This document shows positions 12,669-59,253 of a DNA stretch of 64,000 nucleotides, piece after piece. Both the position numbers and the translations under genes were made by a program. The notes under the pieces were generated by a model that searched no databases, was not told where the DNA came from, and worked only from the letters and a program-made list of their open reading frames with translations. The DNA comes from Apostichopus japonicus (taxonomy: Eukaryota; Echinodermata; Holothuroidea; Aspidochirotida; Stichopodidae): NCBI RefSeq assembly GCF_037975245.1, contig NC_092575.1, positions 4,028,501 to 4,092,500 of the forward strand, read 5' to 3'. The first letter of the stretch is position 1. Every line of letters begins with the position of its first letter.

Positions 12669-12873
12669 ATATATCTTCTCGGCTTTTTGGCTAAGATCAT
12701 GTGTAGTATCTGTTCCCTTCGAGGGGGATCGTGATACACACTTGACGATGATCACACAGTCACAGTCTCGATGCAAGGGGACTGGGGTTGAGAGCGGATC
12801 AGTCGTTCGCTTGTTTGGTGTTTCGTGCCCAGGTTCTTTCCTAGGTGACTTTTCTTAATAAGTATATATCTTC
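12669..12873 (+). mobile_element. U2 snRNA-headed retro-insert (SINE-like) with 10-bp TSD
   Basis: Positions 12671-12716 match the 5' end of U2 snRNA at about 41 of 45 positions, including CTTCTCGGC, TTTTGGCTAAGATCA and the branch-point-pairing segment GTGTAGTATCTG. After about nucleotide 45 the similarity stops: the U2 stem IIb, the Sm site and the 3' stem-loops are replaced by unrelated sequence of about 145 bp. That body includes a CCCTTCGAGGG hairpin and a second hairpin, CCCAGG...CCTAGG. An exact 10-bp direct repeat, atatatcttc, lies at 12669-12678 and 12864-12873, consistent with a target-site duplication. This points to a U2-headed SINE or a chimeric snRNA retrocopy, not a functional U2 gene. 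Confidence 0.65.
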
Positions 12874-18320: not shown

Positions 18321-21300
18321 CTGGAGACCAGAAAGAGAGAAAAGGACGAACGTTGAAGATATGCGTGTGATTGCTATGCAGCCTGTCACAGACACAACCG
18401 AAACAATGCTTTCCAAAGTGTCTAGTGTGTGAGAACGGGACGAATATTGAAGACATGCGTGTGATTGCTATGTAGCCTGTCACAGATAGAACAATGAACA
18501 ATGCTTTACAAAGTGTCCAGAGTGTGTCAACCACAGTTATTTCTTGGTTGGAATGTACTAATGTGCATGATTTAAATGTTTCTGATGCATGAAAAGAGAT
18601 CCACTACCAAGAAAGTAGCATATTCTTCAAAGCTTCCATGTCATTCTATTATAGGGATTGACGAAAAGCAAATAATACTACAGAGAAAACTGGATATTAT
18701 AGTAACTTCTCTAGACTGTATAAATTTACCAAAGGAAGTCTGGATAACTTAGCCGGATAGATCCCTTAAGGTAATCAAGAAAATGATGCTTCTCGTGAAA
18801 CGAAAGAGGGAAGGGTGGGGTAGGGAGGGAGGGAGGGAGGGAGGGAGGGAGGGAGGGAGGGAGGGAGGGAGGGAGGGAGGGAGGGAGGGAGGGAGGGAGG
18901 GAGGGAGGGAGGGAGGGAGGGAGGGAGGGAGGGAGGGAGGGAGGGAGGGAGGGAGGGAGGGAGGGAGGGAGGGAGGGAGGGAGGGAGGGAGGGAGGGAGG
19001 GAGGGAGGGAGGGAGGGAGGGAGGGAGGGAGGGAGGGAGGGAGGGAGGGAGGGAGGGAGGGAGGGAGGGAGGGAGGGAGGGAGGGAGGGAGGGAGAAGAA
19101 TGGGTTCCTGCAATGTATTTGGGTAGATTATATCACAAGGTTCGTTTCCTTTTTTATCATCTTGTTGATATCACAAGGTTTGTTTCCTTTTTTATCATCT
19201 TGTTGATATCACAAGGTTTGTTTCCTTTTTTATCATCTTGTTGATTTGTTCTTATAACACACAGCAATTGGAGAAATACATAGGCCAGGCTCCTGTCAGT
19301 CACCCATACATTACTAGTCCTGCACACAGTATGATAACAAACCCATCATAATGGTAACAATATCATCATAGAGATTATAGCGGACTATCTCTCCCTCTCT
19401 GCCCACCTGTCCGCTTCCCTCATAAAGACTACTACTATAAGGATGCACTGATTATAGCATTTGTTTTTCCCTCTTTAAAGCAGCATTTTGTGTTTTGTCG
19501 CCGTTTTCTTCTTTTTTGACATGTCCATCGAGTTTTTTACATATATCAATCACAAAACAGCAAACTAAGATATTAGCCAAGTTTTTCCCTGCCAACAACG
19601 TTAATTGGCGAGTAACTAAGGATATTTGCAGATAATGAGAATAGTGTCCATGAAAAATTCCATACTTAAAATTAATCGCATACAGTTCCCTTAAACCCAC
19701 TAGTTTGAATTCAACCAATCAGAGATGCAGGTTTAGTTATGAGCCGTTGCTAAAAATAGATTCAAGACTTTGCGTTGGTACAACCAGGGAGTGGTTACCG
19801 AACTCCCTGGTACAACTGCCATGTAGACTGTACACAAATCAAGCATGGTGTTGTATTACGTATTGGTCAATGACATTCGTAGTGCTTAAATATTCATATT
19901 ATGGGCGAGGTTTATTGGGATCCCAACGGAAAATATCTTGGAGAAAAACAAAGTTGAAAGTTGCAAATTTTTCGACTTTTATGCCACCATTTGAAGTAAG
20001 ATTTAAAAAGATAAGCTAGTTATGTATGTTGTTATGGCATAGTGGAGTCAGTGAGGTTGAGAAAAATCAAAGAAAAGGACTCAAAATGCTGCTTTAATAC
20101 AATTACCTCTAACATGTCTTGGAGTGTGTGTGTCCAGCCTACTGCATGTCTAAGCTGCCTCTCGTTAGAACACCGACAGATCTTGGCGACTTGATCACTC
20201 TCATAATTTGCGCTGCCCTGTAACATAAAAAAAATTTATATATATATATATATATAAAAAATAAAAATGATAGAAAAATAAAAGATATTAAGGAAAACTA
20301 TGCATTCCTGGTGAGATCTTGACCAGATTTATGACTGCAGTTCTCAAAAGGTGTATGTTGAAAGGAGGAAGACAATAATAATAGTAAGAATTATTACAAT
20401 AACAGCAACAATAATAATCCTAATAATATGTGGACTAAAATGCTAACTTGGAAACTGACAAGAATATTCCAAGTGACTTTTGGGAGAGAATTGGACTTGA
20501 GCAAGTGTCCTGAATGATTCAATCCTTGAGCTAAAGAAGACTGTTTTGGTTTACATTATGGATGCTGGCCAAAAACTATATTGGTTCTTTCTCTTGAATT
20601 TTTGCATTTGAGTGAGCACAAGATTTAAACTAATCAAGTAGAATATTTTGTCAATCACTTCAGACGTCTCAAAAACTATATTGATTCTTTCTCTTGAATT
20701 TTTGCATTTGAGTGAGTACAAGATTTAAACTAATCAAGTAGAATATTTTGTCAATCACTTCAGACGTCTCAGCCCTCATTAAACTGTTTTTTGTTGATAA
20801 TTCTCTGGAGGGATTACATGGGATATAATTATTAATTAAGTTGCATACTTTTCAGAGCATGACTAATCAACTTGAAATCTGATACAGTATAGAATAGTAT
20901 TTATTGAATAGTTGAATTGGAAAATTGACCAGATGACTGGACAACAATGTAATTAAACGTAGAGAAGTTGGGTTGTCCAATCACCATTCAGGTTCAGTTG
21001 ACTGACAAGATACACATTACATTGTCAGCAGCCTGTCAGCCAACAAAGGTCAGCAATGAAGAGTAAAACGGAGAAAACTTTGGTTGACAAATCACCATTC
21101 AGGTTCAGTTGACTGACAAGATACACATCACATGGTCAGGAGCCTGTCACCAATCAGGTTCAGTTGACTGACAAGATACACATTACGTGGTCAGGAACCT
21201 GTCACCAATCAGGTTCAGTTGACTGACAAGATACACATTACATGGTCAGGAGCCTGTCACCAATCACCATTCAGGTTCAGTTGACTGACTAGATACACAT

Positions 21301-24300
21301 TACATGGTCAGGAGCCTGTCACCAATCACCATTCAGGTTCAATTGACTGACAAGATACAAATTACATGGTCAGGAGCCTGTCACCAATCACCATTCAGGT
21401 TCAGTTGACTGACTAGATACACATTACATGGTCAGGAGCCTGTCACCAATCACCATTCAGGTTCAGTTGACTGACAAGATACACATTACATGGTCAGGAG
21501 CCTGTCACCAATCACAATTCAGGTTCAGTAAACTGACAAGATACACATTACATGGTCAGGAACCTGTCACCAATCACCATTCAAGTTCAGTTGACTGACA
21601 AGATACACATTACATGGTCAGGAGCCTGTCACCAATCACAATTCAGGTTCAGTAAACTGACAAGATACACATTACATGGTCAGGAGCCTGTCACCAATCA
21701 CAATTCAGGTTCAGTAAACTGACAAGATACACATCACATGGTCAGGAGCCTGTCACCAATCACAATTCAGGTTCAGTTGACTGACAAGATACACATTACA
21801 TGGTCAGGAACCTGTCACCAATCACCATTCAGGTTCAGTTGACTGACAAGATACACATTACATGGTCAGGAGCCTGTCACCAATCACCATTCAGGTTCAG
21901 TTGACTGACAAGATACACACTACGTTGTCAGGAGCCTGTCAGCCAACAAAGGTCAGCAATGTAGTAAAACATGCAGAACTTTGGTTGACCAATCACCATT
22001 CAGGTTCAGTTGACTAACAAGATACACATCACATGGTCAGGAGCCTGTCAGCCAATAAAGGTTAGTAAATGTGTAGTAAAAACAGAGAGAACTTTTATTG
22101 ACCAATCATCGGTTACAGGGATAAACGCTCACCTTGACCAGACACCCTGATGAGTTGGTTCTACTGTTAGAGGAACCGCTTGTTGATTTCTCCCCTTTAC
22201 AGTCAGCACATATCTCTCCCACGCCACAAGGTTCTTCTTCCTGGAACTCTCCTGTGTGCGAGTAACAACACCCAAAACACACAAAATAATTAAATTTACA
22301 ATGTAACATATTGATCTTCAAATTATACAATGCACAGGGAGCTGGTGAATAATTCAACCACTCCATAACAAGCTGACGTCACTTCTGGAATTCTCCTGTG
22401 TGCGAGTAACAACACCATATGATTTGTTTAGTCCATGTTTAAGCTTGACTCATTTAAAATTGACCGAAGCCTCAGTGTAGCTGAGTGTATTTAAGTTGCA
22501 AAATTTACATGGTAACATTTGATCTTCAAATTATACAATGCACAAGGGAGCTGGTAAATAACCTTTGCCAGATAATTGCAATTACAATTCTGCCCCTGAC
22601 TCTTACATACAAATGGCTATGACAGTGGTGGGTAACTATAGAGGGTATCGCTGGAATATTTTTCAAGAAACACCCTTTCCTAAAGCTTCTATCCTTCTCT
22701 GTAGACTAGCTTGAAACAATATATGTTGTGTGATTAAGCGCACAGGGATGTTAACATGCAATATACACCTGACTCTAGACTTCTAGTAGGGTGTCTTAGT
22801 TGATCAATCAATCTAATTCGAGTAAAACAAAGGTACTTTGGTAAAATCAACATGTATAATGCAACAAAACATCATGAAAGTAGGCCTTCTGGGTTGATTC
22901 TGGTGCTATTCAGTACTAGAATCTTTCAAACTTTTGCAATTATTTTTCCGGTTCCGAGTGTGATGTTGCTGTGACTTACCGCACATCGCTGGACGACCCT
23001 TATCTTCAACGCTGCCTTTGTCATTGTTGTTGGGCGTGTCGTGACGTTGTTGACCGTTGGTTAATACTTTGGTGGTCTTACCGTTGATGGCAGGCCCTTT
23101 AGGAATAGAAGCCTTGGGTTCTTCTTGGACAGATGTGGACAGACACTGAGGAAAGCAAAAGAGAAATCATCTTAGAAGCGAAAAATTTCAACGTGGACAT
23201 TTTTTAAAATCGATACTTTTGATACCCTGCAGTCATTTGAAAGATACTGTCAAAATAACTGTCCAATCTCCTACAAAAGTCCACATAGTTGGTGCTGAAA
23301 TTGACTTTAGAACCCAACAATGGAAAATAAGCAGGTGAGGTACCCATGATGAAATTAACTTGCATCTTTTGGGAACCTGTTACCTGATGGTTTTTCTTCT
23401 TGAGATATCATGCTTACAACGTTTCACAGTTTATTCTCTGACCAATATAACTCTACTAAAACAATAAAGCATTTGTTTCCCACTGATTTTAAATCCTTCC
23501 ATCCCGTTAATTTTTTTTAAAATCCTATCCGATTCTTACCTCACACGTGGTTTCATTTTCTTTTTCAGCCTCACAGCACCCATGCGGTTTCCGTTCTGTG
23601 GTTTCCGATTCTCCGGCCACTTCCGGTTTGGGGAGCGATTTGTTCTTCTTCCGGGCTTTCTTCCGCTGTTTCTTCTGTTCTCGTCTCTGCTGCCTCTCCT
23701 CATCCTCCTTGTTGATTTCTTGACAGATGAGTTCGATTTTACTCAAGCCGTGCTTCGCATCGAGAGCGACCTGTTTGGGAATTTGAAAAGAGGGGGATAA
23801 CAAAAATATTTGAGAATGCATTAAAAGCGGCAAAAAAACCATGGTCGCTACCACCGTAAACAGTTAGCAAACCAAAAATAATTGTTGACAAGAATCACAG
23901 GATAGTAATGAAGAGAGTCTGAACTTGATTCAGGTCTTTCCCTGTTTTGCACATCTTGTGCAAAAACCTTCCGTTCTCTCTGAAATGATCCCCCCAAAAA
24001 AATCAGGGTCTCGTTCACATTTTAGCAATGAATACAGGTTCACTATATTGCAAAATTTGAACTGGTAGTCCTAATGCCTCCTTATTACCTCTTATTACCC
24101 AAATCATCTAGTTAAAGGAACTTCTTAACAGCCATGCCTTTTATCAGGTCAAAGGTACCTACTTTTTTTTTTAACGTATTTTACGTAATATTACCGTTTT
24201 TAATCTCTTGTTTGTTATACCTCATATTGTACTTTCATAACCTCTTATTGTTTTGTTTTAAATCACATCCTATTGTATTTTTTATAACATCTTATTGCTT

Positions 24301-41801: not shown

Positions 41802-43660
41802 GAAAACGTAATGAGTTGGAAAATTTAGAACAGTGAAAAAACTTCCAGCCTCCACTGGGATTCGAACCTGGGCCTCCCGCTTTATATGCGGACACCCTAA
41901 CAAACTAGGCGATGGTCGCTGATTGTATGTCCAGAGGTTCAAAACCGGTAAGGAAGGTCGTAATTCCATTGTAGGCGTTTGTCACCTGTATCGAACAATA
42001 CTAGTTCTGTTTTTGGTGACATATTTGCCCTACTCTAGAGATCAAACATGATGCTAACCAACTCGAAATCATTTGTGATTCCTAAAGCCGGATCTCGAAA
42101 GAGATACTTTGAACAGACTATATATATACATATATACATTTAATGTGTACATGAGAGCACGCTTCAAATGTGTATGTATGGTCTGTCATGTGAAAAAAGA
42201 AAAAAATCATTTCCATTTATATCACACAAACATTTCATACAATTTTCAAATGTTATTATGTAGAGTAATGTGTATGTCCATCCTAGTACCTGTCGCAATT
42301 ACATGCATGTCACATCTTTCCGATTCATATGCCCTTTGACATTATAGATTTATAAAGGTTGCCTTTTCAATCGACGTTCTGAAGCTATAAAAAGACTTGG
42401 AAATTCAAGTATTATGATGATGAGTAGCTATTTTATACTTCAGTTCCTCTCCCAACAAGTTTCAGGTACTTGACCGCAAGTAAAGATTTGCGTGTATAGT
42501 GTAATCGACAACAGAAAAACTGGCTGTGAAATCAAAATCAAATATTGAAAGGGACAGACAATTATTTACTGGGTAGGACGGGACCTGAAAACCAGTAAGC
42601 TAGAGATTAAAACCATAGTAACTGAGCCATCCCTCTCTCGGTTGGTGGCAAAGTAACTTTTTTGGGAGGAGAGATCGTTCTCCCAACAACGGGGTGTGCC
42701 AAACAGGTGATATGATCATAACTGGATCAGTGTCTTTTTTTTCGTCTGTCTATAAATCAACAGACAGACAGACAAATTATTGGAAGACTCACTCTCTGCT
42801 CCAATACTTTAACCTAACTTTTTAACAGTCCAATGGATGGGATTTCTCTATATGTGTGCAATTTGTATTCATTTTACTGTATGAGTGTGTGAAGTTTTTT
42901 TTCTTCTTTTCAAATTATCTTTTCTTGTCCTCCTGTAAGCTTTCTTTATAGGGCGTCTATATCAAGATGAACTAAACATAGTCTTGTACCTAGCCTGGAA
43001 TACAAGGGGAAAAATTCTTCTCATGATTAAGACAAAGAAGAAGTTTACTCTTTCCCAACAAACAGATTTTACCCCTTATTTCAATCGTCATGTGGAACAA
43101 TTAATTCGCTGTAGAACTGGATAAACTTTAAAAGATAAAATAGGAAAGTAGCAGGCTCTGTAGCACTCGAAAAATGGTAGTAGCGTTGTCGTCATGGTGA
43201 TATGAATAATAGCATTACGGAAAGATCTATTTAAAGAAGAAGAAGAAGAAGAGAAAAAGTAAGGATAACGAGCAGAAATATAGATAATTAATAAATTTAA
43301 GTCACAAGACGAGACATTCAAACCAATTGCTATTTCTTCACATTTACCGATTATTTACAACAACAACAAAATATTTAAAATTGCCATGAATATTTTTTCC
43401 CTTTCCCAAACCAAGAAAAAAATGCTCTACCAACAACATACCCCTCCCCCATCTTAAAAAATGAATGGCTATGTCCTTTTCCCCAATACAAAAAAAAAAA
43501 ATTACCCAACATAAATTACACACAAAAGTACTGTACCAATCTTTTCACAAAAATGTTAAAAATCTACATTTCCAAACTATTAACTAGATAAGAAAAAGGG
43601 AGAGAAAAAAATCTGAAAAAGGGGGTGGGAAAAAAATCGTTTGCACATTTTTTTTCTTCT
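39143..43660 (-). other. Malectin 3' flank, possibly long 3' UTR
   Basis: I see no other gene here. On the minus strand an AATAAA lies at 39322-39327, among others, so how far the malectin 3' UTR extends is unknown. The stretch holds an (AT)n run (about 41764-41798), a tRNA-like relic (about 41838-41925) and a short AG run near 43229-43252. Confidence 0.4.
41838..41925 (-). pseudogene. tRNA-like relic (decayed tRNA or tRNA-derived SINE)
   Basis: The minus strand reads GCGACCATCGCCTAGTTTGTTAGGG, a TCCGC-ATATAAA-GCGGG anticodon arm and a B box, GGTTCGAATCCCAG. The anticodon arm folds, but the T stem and acceptor stem pair poorly. This is therefore more likely a relic than a working tRNA gene. 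Confidence 0.5.
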
Positions 43661-58800: not shown

Positions 58801-59253
58801 AGTTAAATGCAGCAGTCGTTAGGGTAGGGCAACAGGCATTGCAAATACAACAGCCTACAGTAGGTATGATTAAGATAGACATTCATATTTATCACAATCA
58901 CAAGGTACCTTCTCTGATCGAGCTGCAAACCAAACTTCTGAAAACTTTAGCACCAGTACATAGTCACCATCGTCTTCAACAGGAATCGAGTAACTAAAGG
59001 TATCTACGTGATAGCGTTCTGTTTGATATAAGATAGCATCTTGTAAGGGCACTCTTTGAATGTTTAGGGCTTTACCATAGTCCGACGGGGTACCTATGCG
59101 GTTGAAATCCGCCTGATAGTGAACCCCATTAACGTCTATGTGTTCAGGTCCCCCACAATTGACGGCAAAGATAACTTCTGGGGCCCCGCTCGAGAAACAT
59201 AAGAAAGTTAGACCAATAAAAGGAATACATATGCACCAAATCTGATGATCCAT
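43661..59253 (-). CDS. MLEC: Malectin, complete gene span with introns
   Basis: Malectin is a type I ER membrane lectin that binds diglucosylated high-mannose N-glycans, works with ribophorin I, and takes part in glycoprotein quality control. Four exons joined at consensus sites give 819 nt and 272 residues (human 292). Visible parts: signal peptide about 1-23 with hydrophobic core [10 protein letters not shown]; malectin domain about 26-190 ([44 protein letters not shown]); an acidic [16 protein letters not shown] linker about 205-220; and a C-terminal membrane helix [20 protein letters not shown] with terminal CRL. Of the five carbohydrate-contact residues known from Xenopus (Y67, Y89, Y116, F117, D186), the equivalents here are Y59, Y81, W108, F109 and D178, so one Tyr is Trp. 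Identification is firm. Confidence 0.97.
43927..44287 (+). mobile_element. TTAA-flanked MITE, copy 1
   Basis: The ends are AAGGGTGTGAAG and CTTCAATGCCT, both adjoining TTAA. The internal words GACATCTCAGGTCCAGC and GAAAGTTAACTTTTTCAGAT are shared with the other three copies in the window. TTAA duplications are typical of the Kolobok and piggyBac superfamilies. It lies in malectin intron 3, immediately beside exon 4. Confidence 0.85.
45148..45323. mobile_element. Palindromic hairpin MITE (about 176 bp)
   Basis: The arms begin GGGGTTAATCAACGGT and include GTGCGTTACTCACAGGATTAA, mirrored at the right as GTGAGTAACGCAC...ACCGTTGATTAACCCC. Each arm is nearly 50 bp. Between them lies a CG-rich core (gcagagcgtagcggagcccg). 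A partial arm copy occurs at about 45430-45460. It lies in malectin intron 3. Confidence 0.8.
45668..45725 (-). CDS. MLEC: Malectin exon 3
   Basis: The exon is 58 nt, with acceptor TTTACAG|GGT and donor G|GTAAGT. It encodes [19 protein letters not shown]; the Asp of DNPK is the last ligand-contact residue of the pocket. Confidence 0.95.
46187..46740. repeat. Four-copy diverged tandem repeat, about 120-150 bp unit
   Basis: Units begin at (t)tggaatctagt near 46188, 46338, 46482 and 46619. They share 'gagccttgtactcgtaccc', 'catgctgttgtgcccatgg' and 'ccagtgcaaacttaagta'. The repeat lies in malectin intron 2. Confidence 0.88.
47231..47407 (-). CDS. MLEC: Malectin exon 2
   Basis: The exon is 177 nt, phase 0 at both ends, with acceptor TTTCAG|GTG and donor AAG|GTAGGT. 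It encodes [12 protein letters not shown]...[12 protein letters not shown]...FVK, the second half of the carbohydrate-binding domain. Confidence 0.96.
47581..47918. mobile_element. hAT-like MITE with CAGGGGTGGGCAACCT ends
   Basis: The TIRs CAGGGGTGGGCAACCT and AGGTTGCCCACCCCTG are perfect over 16 bp. Flanks ctctatga (47573-47580) and ctctgtga (47919-47926) are an 8-bp duplication with one mismatch. This terminus is widespread among animal hAT elements. It lies in malectin intron 1, about 170 bp from exon 2. Confidence 0.92.
47938..48036. mobile_element. Hairpin element, about 26-bp arms
   Basis: TACCTGTCTCCCACTCAACA at the left is mirrored by TGTTGAGTGGGGACAGGTA at the right, with inner repeats of catctgca. 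This is a small foldback insertion lying between a hAT MITE and a TTAA MITE. Confidence 0.75.
48157..48500 (-). mobile_element. TTAA-flanked MITE, copy 2 (inverted)
   Basis: This is the reverse-oriented copy: AGGCATTGAAGACTTGCCCC at the left, GTCTTCACACCCA at the right, with TTAA on both sides. It lies in malectin intron 1. Confidence 0.87.
49435..49960. repeat. Degenerate AGCTAC/GTAGCT-rich region with inverted repeat
   Basis: The words agctac, gctact and tagctac recur throughout in both orientations. Within it, GTAGCTTAAAGTAGAAGTCC (49686-49707) is mirrored at 49772-49796 (AAGGACTTCTACG...AGCTAC), forming a hairpin with a loop of about 64 bp. Confidence 0.7.
51286..51540 (+). mobile_element. 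tRNA-derived SINE
   Basis: The head has an A box, TTAGCTCAGTGGTTACCG, and a B box, CCGGTTCGAGTCAC, spaced as in a Pol III tRNA promoter. It is followed by a non-tRNA body containing an inverted repeat (gactgacttcggtcagc). The right boundary is uncertain. Confidence 0.65.
54085..54423 (+). mobile_element. TTAA-flanked MITE, copy 3
   Basis: GAAGGGTGTGAAGACTCGCGC opens the copy and CTTCAATGCCT|TTAA closes it. The left TTAA is altered to ttatttg. It lies in malectin intron 1. Confidence 0.83.
54424..57405. other. Malectin intron 1, no gene seen
   Basis: This stretch holds only AT-rich spacer and a C homopolymer cluster (54815-54834). The open frame at 55072-55335 matches no family I know. Confidence 0.4.
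57406..57763 (+). mobile_element. TTAA-flanked MITE, copy 4
   Basis: The copy opens AGAGTGTGAAGACTCGCGC and ends GTCTTCAAGGCCT, with TTAA at 57402-57405 and 57764-57767. It lies in malectin intron 1. Confidence 0.86.
58909..59253 (-). CDS. MLEC: Malectin exon 1
   Basis: The exon is 345 nt and encodes residues 1-115, signal peptide through [10 protein letters not shown]. The donor is AAG|GTACCT in phase 0. The open frame runs 24 more bases into the intron before a stop, which is not part of the gene. Confidence 0.95.

Follow-up and report, generated by a model that had tools for sequence, protein, structure and literature searches.

The sea cucumber Apostichopus japonicus carries a family of SINEs of approximately 191 nt, in which the 5' end of U2 snRNA is joined to an unrelated body, and copies of this family are found both dispersed over the genome and inside U2 snRNA genes. 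The element is probably a non-autonomous resident of the U2 genes that is transcribed from the U2 promoter, is mobilised by a Keno-like LINE, and spills over the genome at A|TC sites. The sequences directly support the family itself, the identity of its head to U2, the duplications, the 5' truncation, the insertions in U2 genes, the intact promoters there, and the insertion site held in common with a LINE. From the arrangement as a whole, we infer that the U2 promoter drives transcription, that the head acts at the 5' junction, and that this LINE is the partner.

A U2-headed SINE and its genomic copies

The window, which is the whole stretch of 64,000 nt that was analysed and spans 4028501-4092500 of contig C15, contains one dispersed copy of the family (Table 1). 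A first-pass annotation had described this copy as a U2 5' head, including the branch-site-pairing segment, fused to a body that is unrelated to U2 and lacks the Sm site, and this description holds. The head differs from the genome's U2 at a single position (GGCTTTTTGG instead of GGCCTTTTGG), and a window position equals the U2 nucleotide plus 12670. Past the head, only a 7-nt chance match to U2 is found in the young-subfamily sequence of the SINE, and no Sm-like site is found in that sequence, the site in U2 being GATTTTTGC. The exact 10-bp bracket and its overlap with the CTTC of U2 were also read correctly, and the CTTC of the left repeat doubles as U2 nt 5-8. We refine the length of the duplication to 9-10 bp, because the element itself ends with ...AAGTA in other copies and the A at 12864 is thus common to the element end and the repeat.

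Table 1. Coordinates of the window copy and of the SINE insertions in U2 genes
Feature	Position	Strand	Description and basis
Whole unit, dispersed SINE copy	12669-12873	+	Sequence; one family member
Left target-site duplication copy, atatatcttc	12669..12678	+	Sequence; 10-nt exact duplication
U2-derived head (U2 nt 5-45)	12675..12715	+	One mismatch to the genome's U2 genes; Rfam RF00004, 50 bits
U2 branch-site-pairing segment GTAGTATC	12703..12710	+	Numbering against the genome's U2
Position equivalent to the U2-LINE insertion site (nt 38/39)	between 12708 and 12709	+	Passages of PMC4640811 and array junctions
SINE body, constant 3' end ...AAGTA	12716..12864	+	Family alignment, consensus, body 31-mer
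First 3' hairpin, CCCAGG ... CCTAGG (consensus CCTGGG)	12828..12845	+	Predicted RNA folds of consensus and tail
Second 3' hairpin, ACTTTT...AAGT (young-subfamily consensus ACTTTTT CTT AAAAAGT)	12848..12863	+	Predicted RNA folds of consensus and tail
Right target-site duplication copy	12864..12873	+	Sequence; exact 10 bp
SINE in U2 gene	C16 31006762		5'-truncated, starting at GGATCAGTCG; U2 nt 39-53 duplicated (15 bp); the gene also carries a LINE
SINE in U2 gene	C16 31021624		Promoter and U2 nt 1-40 joined to a truncated SINE; after it, another SINE body beginning TCTGTTCCCC
SINE in U2 gene	C16 31059287		U2 nt 1-45 (one mismatch) directly joined to body; no second head
SINE in U2 gene	C16 31132304		U2 nt 1-45 directly joined to body; no second head
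SINE in U2 gene	C16 31133747		U2 nt 1-45 directly joined to body; no second head
SINE in U2 gene	C16 31134545		5'-truncated, starting at CTGACGATG; U2 nt 39-53 duplicated (15 bp)

Family status, which had been proposed from this one copy, is borne out by the pattern counts, all of which cover the whole genome (671,581,487 bases in 35 contigs). A 31-mer of the body, with up to two mismatches, is found at 1,595 places on many contigs, compared to 0 for the control, and the flanks of the copies differ; the unit is thus not the single genomic copy that the first-pass annotation had named as evidence against a family. A 33-mer of the head is found at 1,145 places, with the true U2 genes counted in, and a 32-mer of the tail at 721. 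Similarity searches gave at least 45 matches with the window unit as the query (40 of 2,418 first-look candidates scored) and at least 47 with the consensus (40 of 3,314 candidates scored), the best identity among the matches listed being 97%. An exact 21-mer of the body gave 0 matches in a viral contig collection. The family alignment comprises 46 copies of at least 160 nt, leaving out the duplicate locus L006 and shorter matches. In addition, we read 40 loci found through an exact body core and 20 found through an exact tail; all 20 tail loci contain the SINE, and 13 of the 40 core loci lie inside one larger repeat and were copied along with it.

These data bear on the reading of the window unit as a diverged U2 gene, a U2 retropseudogene, or a piece of a larger repeat. 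The Rfam scan of the window calls the copy U2 (12671-12757, 50 bits, with a gathering score of 46), where the conserved portion of the printed alignments is the first 45 nt, and the 13 core-anchored copies do sit in a larger repeat. However, a body without U2 similarity and without an Sm site does not fit a diverged full U2, and the larger repeat accounts for those 13 copies only. The window copy, bracketed by a duplication of its own, lies outside it, and other copies have different flanks and separate duplications. Contig C16 holds a 645-bp tandem array of U2 genes, further U2 genes lie on C15, and exact U2 sequence across nt 28-63 is found 56 times on C16 and 4 times on C15, at 60 places in all. 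The dispersed heads are therefore not general U2 retrocopies, and we regard this reading as scarcely credible.

We next fitted subfamilies to 95 full-length copies, a sample collected by similarity in which the numbers are not genomic frequencies. The fit gave 22 young copies, of which 14 have 98-100% identity, and 73 older copies, of which 67 have 90-97%. In the set with 85% identity or more, the young copies differ at 4 of 812 head positions vs 50 of 2,937 body positions, and the older ones at 89 of 2,580 vs 437 of 9,551, the body figures being raised in part by subfamily variation. The young-subfamily head is identical to nt 1-45 of the genome's own U2, including ATCATGTG, and the identity ends at nt 45, which bears out the comparison with the species' U2 genes that had been suggested earlier. 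Some older heads show GTAGCATTATG where GTAGTATCTG is expected, in the branch-pairing segment (for example L111, L134, and L142, with GTAGCATTATG-like forms in L104 and L137), and the present U2 genes give no explanation for this form.

Several arrangements of the copies were also observed. One tail locus, L116 (C2:21947504-21948900), is an array of full and truncated SINE pieces in tandem, linked by TCCTATCC-type spacers, as if a satellite had been seeded through repeated insertion or unequal exchange. The larger repeat, with the flank ...GTTGAAGACATCCCCGA, holds a 5'-truncated SINE in L092, L097, L098, L099, L101, L108, L132, L133, and L145-L149. Exact matches of the body core lie about 15 kb apart on C8 (11.75-11.90 Mb and 20.87-20.89 Mb) and C10 (14.81-14.84 Mb), and this spacing suggests larger tandem units containing the SINE. 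Elsewhere in the window, self-comparison reveals a tandem repeat array with a period of about 62 bp (20939-22108), and a long GGGA-type simple repeat at 18783-19244 can be read as an open frame of GGRE repeats. On the - strand, there is an open frame with a malectin domain (58870-59253; PF11721, E 1.1e-21) and a tRNA-like match of 35.3 bits (41847-41919), possibly another SINE head.

Duplications, truncation, and target sites

Exact flanking repeats of at least 10 nt are found in 11 of the 46 aligned copies vs 0.17% of shuffled flank pairs, a figure that counts L032 and L033, which have their flanks in common, twice. When one mismatch is permitted from 11 nt on, a duplication is found at 41 of 88 3' ends vs 2.8% of shuffles, and these 41 include five rows of the L116 array and two AT-microsatellite sites. 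The duplications are 11-16 bp long in 33 of the 41, with a range of 9-18 bp. Many copies are truncated at differing points of the 5' end, and the 3' end ...AAGTA is constant. As judged from these sequence features, the target-site duplications together with variable 5' truncation and a constant 3' end indicate that the SINE has spread by target-primed reverse transcription. Spread as DNA, in the manner of a MITE or a satellite and with no retrotransposition, could draw on the tandem array of SINE pieces at L116, but it is at odds with duplications that vary from 9 to 18 bp and with truncation confined to the 5' end; terminal inverted repeats around the unit were looked for and none were found. 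We consider it highly improbable.

The empty sites have A before the break in 36 of 41 cases, and T and C after it in 31 and 22 of 41, respectively (each p <1e-6 vs the base composition of the window), where the A at -1 is partly ambiguous, the element's own last base being A. With four array rows and the two AT sites removed, the counts are A 30, T 25, and C 18 of 35. The U2 sequence past the site, TCTG, follows 29 of 667 exact SINE tails (4.3%; the control for the tail pattern gives 4 places), compared to a background of 0.36% in the fetched loci. Seven of these 29 tails lie within the U2 array and 22 outside it. Among the 22, seven are inserted in the U2-derived head of a different SINE copy (L180, L186, L188, L189, L190, L035, and L121), one is a place on C20, and 14 are in other sequence, including two apparent duplicate pairs (L178/L179 and L032/L033). 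Leaving out the array, C20, and head sites, the rate is 14/652. This residual rate and the insertions in heads lead us to conclude that the U2 site is therefore a landing site wherever it is present and that U2-like sites are favoured elsewhere.

SINEs and LINEs inside the U2 genes

Screening 20 fetched U2 loci with the SINE body revealed a SINE inside one array U2 gene (L050 and L051 are one place) and a second SINE 1.2 kb from a C15 U2 gene (L044). A pattern that picks out U2 genes interrupted before nt 35 by AA, and that leaves out a second insert type ending ...AAAAGAA|ATCTG (L053), matches 23 places, of which 22 lie in the C16 array and one lies on C20. When the 22 array junctions are read singly, six have the SINE at their end and the other 16 have a LINE-type tail, and the C20 place is a SINE ahead of a U2-like fragment. 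In all six SINE-bearing C16 genes, the insertion lies exactly at U2 nt 38/39 (Table 1). The two 5'-truncated insertions with the 15-bp duplication correspond to loci L164 and L174, and the gene at 31021624 looks as if a later insertion had split an earlier seamless one.

The seamless insertions retain the U2 unit upstream, with identities of 497/497 (31132304), 497/497 (31133747), and 399/400 (31059287). Three SINE-bearing units and an intact U2 unit lying among them fall within 3.35 kb, and upstream the three match the reference unit perfectly over 505, 497, and 497 positions. The copy at 31132304 is identical to the young-subfamily sequence at 191 of 191 positions, and two dispersed copies, L126 and L180, match it perfectly over 188 and 185 nt, respectively. 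Diagnostic bases include CCCCTCGGG in the copy at 31133747 and TGATCCC in that at 31059287.

Alternatively, the head could have been captured once, when a LINE reverse transcriptase switched template onto U2 snRNA (compare the U6/L1 chimeras); the chimera would then have spread from dispersed sources via cryptic or neighbouring promoters, and the U2-gene insertions would be by-products of site preference. Template switching of L1 to snRNAs is established and counts for such a capture. Most copies are dispersed, 1,595 body matches standing against six SINE-bearing U2 genes, and the insertions into SINE heads show that the U2 site is hit there too, so that the U2 genes may be one target among others. 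However, the dispersed copies have no visible promoter of their own, whereas copies in the array have the complete U2 spacer and promoter, and one of these is exactly the young subfamily. Young heads are also nearer to U2 than their bodies are to the consensus in the counts given above, with subfamily variation inflating the body figure. On balance, a single capture appears unlikely, and we favour the U2 genes as the residence of the source copies.

The same site is used by known LINEs. In the passages of PMC4640811 on which we draw, the U2 sequence past Utopia insertions begins at nt 39, and Keno, which has an AP-type endonuclease, has the same 3' flank; Utopia duplications are absent in arthropod families and 20 bp long in reptile ones, and the reptile families are weakly specific and insert at U2-like sites elsewhere. 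In the C16 U2 array, the LINE L161 has one uninterrupted frame of 1,162 aa with APE (PF03372), RT (PF00078), and zf-RVT (PF13966) domains, and its best match among solved structures is human L1 ORF2p (E 5.6e-82). L161 is the LINE whose protein was examined, and the other array LINE calls rest on matching tails. In its domains, its site, the continuation of U2 from nt 39, and an L1 protein as the closest solved structure, the array LINE resembles Keno; in contrast to Keno, the SINE is non-coding and mostly dispersed.

The SINE and the array LINE tails have the junction ...AAAGTA|TCTG in common. What their 3' ends have in common is limited to about AAAAGTA, the U2 junction, and a possible hairpin, and no longer tail common to the SINE body and the array LINE 3' ends was found. 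A weak ACTT/AAGT hairpin can form in one LINE tail, and in the predicted fold the other does not form it. The exact LINE tail ACTTGAAAGAAAAGTA is found at 17 places, 15 of them on C16 at 30.89-31.16 Mb (control 4). We also searched for a partner tail in nine 2-kb regions downstream of LINE-type RTs (from 150 RT places listed), which need not all reach a LINE 3' end, and found nothing convincing in them; a 12-nt tail match in L155 was judged to be chance. Two other arrangements are seen in the C16 array. L053 (235-892, turned to the U2 orientation) carries the second type of insert in the U2 site, which has the tail CATTAAAAGAA|ATCTG and a coding-looking 3' part. In L046 and L047 (near 31,041,000), the sequence breaks 19 bp before the start of a U2 gene, beside an RT of a 961-aa class that is present on other contigs too.

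The SINE could thus reside in U2 genes and depend on a different partner, namely a Utopia-type LINE with a restriction-like endonuclease, the second array family, or an unseen dispersed LINE of relaxed specificity. Utopia shares the insertion site, and its reptile families show the weak specificity described in the cited passages of PMC4640811; a second insert family is present at the U2 site; and the tail of L161-type LINEs is confined to the U2 region, whereas the SINE is found genome-wide. This last point is the weak point of a Keno-like partner, and it implies that the same machinery goes off target far more often with the SINE than with its own RNA, or that a second LINE is involved. On the other hand, the junction ...AAAAGTA|TCTG is common to the SINE and the L161-type tails and not to the second family, and duplications that are mostly 11-16 bp long suit an APE-type LINE, unlike those given for Utopia in the same source. 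A different partner is somewhat unlikely in our estimation, and a Keno-like LINE is the one that we prefer. The short common tail and the older GTAGCATTATG heads also count against the preferred reading.

A proposed cycle and its relation to known elements

Pol II transcribes U2 from a promoter that lies upstream, and an internal Pol III promoter is not a defining feature of snRNA-headed SINEs. In the young sequence, the best A box matches 6/8 and the best B box 6/9 consensus positions, values matched by 98% and 96% of block shuffles, respectively, and T runs occur at nt 15-18 (T4, in the head), 146-149 (T4), and 176-180 (T5). Because the A and B boxes are at shuffle level, this sequence test does not support Pol III transcription of the SINE, and we set aside the element as a Pol III SINE. 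Among the features that the first-pass annotation had named for checking, Pol III boxes were therefore not recovered, and the comparison with LINE tails gave only the short match described above. The older consensus folds with a predicted -70.3 kcal/mol (z -3.5) and two hairpins at its 3' end. A hammerhead-like CTGACGA was spotted by eye in the body; an Rfam scan of six loci, with E up to 5, gave no ribozyme.

In the cycle that we propose, source copies would reside in U2 snRNA genes at nt 38/39, and the U2 promoter would transcribe U2 nt 1-45 together with the SINE body, so that the head is the 5' end of the host gene. The LINE protein would start priming at the nicked U2 site or, elsewhere, at A|TC sites, possibly aided by pairing with read-through UCUG in the RNA, and reverse transcription would most likely be carried out by the Keno-like L1-type LINE of the same site and array. 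In a U2 target, the head of the cDNA may pair with the upstream half of the site, so that the 5' junction is seamless and a further source driven by the promoter arises. Landing elsewhere at U2-like A|TC sites would leave copies such as the window copy, which lack a promoter and have duplications that are mostly 11-16 bp long.

The role of the head is modelled on R2, in which upstream 28S sequence in the RNA helps to form the 5' junction. R2 and its short non-autonomous derivatives reside in the multicopy 28S rDNA and are transcribed with the host gene. By analogy, the SINE may share with R2 the residence in a multicopy RNA gene, co-transcription, and the use of upstream host sequence at the 5' junction; unlike R2, it sits in a Pol II snRNA gene and not in rDNA, and there is no sequence kinship. 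Mammalian snRNA/L1 chimeric retrocopies also join the 5' part of an snRNA to other sequence and have a duplication. Those are separate chimeric events, in contrast to the amplified family with subfamilies described here.

The closest known elements are the SINEU of crocodilians, which, as Kojima is said to have described in 2015, have U1 or U2 heads that were gained repeatedly and are mobilised by Tx1-clade LINEs. Like SINEU in its general layout, the sea cucumber SINE has a U2 5' head and an unrelated body, is dispersed, and has duplications. Unlike the crocodilian elements, it is also found in U2 genes, at the site of a U2 LINE and under the U2 promoter, and we know of no report of such residence for SINEU. 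The U2-type head itself is thus already known, and what is new here is that the host belongs to another group and that a source can be seen within the parent gene. Searching the open-licence literature, we found no U2-headed SINE outside crocodilians and birds and no SINE resident in U2 genes. SINEU is named as a class in passages of PMC8010984 and PMC5753468, and the latter gives it as a Repbase class and cites Kojima 2015 for sequence-specific Tx1 LINEs in crocodilians.

The family also bears on genome annotation. The window copy passes the Rfam gathering score, so some of the U2 genes counted with Rfam in genomes of this kind may be SINE copies. In the published annotation of A. japonicus, 159,644 bp of SINE (PMC10344927) and 996 splicing snRNAs are given, and both figures may be affected by this family; as an estimate, 1,595 copies of about 190 bp would exceed the annotated SINE length, some copies being truncated. 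For another sea cucumber, 41,260 SINE copies are given in the cited part of PMC13228809, and relatives of the U2-headed SINE may already be annotated among them.

A copied U2 head carries no promoter, because the U2 promoter lies upstream and is used by Pol II, and this is the puzzle of snRNA-headed SINEs. With the chances evenly balanced in our view, U2 snRNA genes may be the source genes of the present SINE, which would use their snRNA-type Pol II promoter, restore that promoter through a homing head whenever it re-inserts, and scatter promoterless copies; snRNA-headed SINEs in general, SINEU included, would then originate in the same way. The U2-gene copies with an intact promoter make the origin of the head, its transcription, and its homing testable in one array, and they could explain the origin of snRNA-headed jumping elements.
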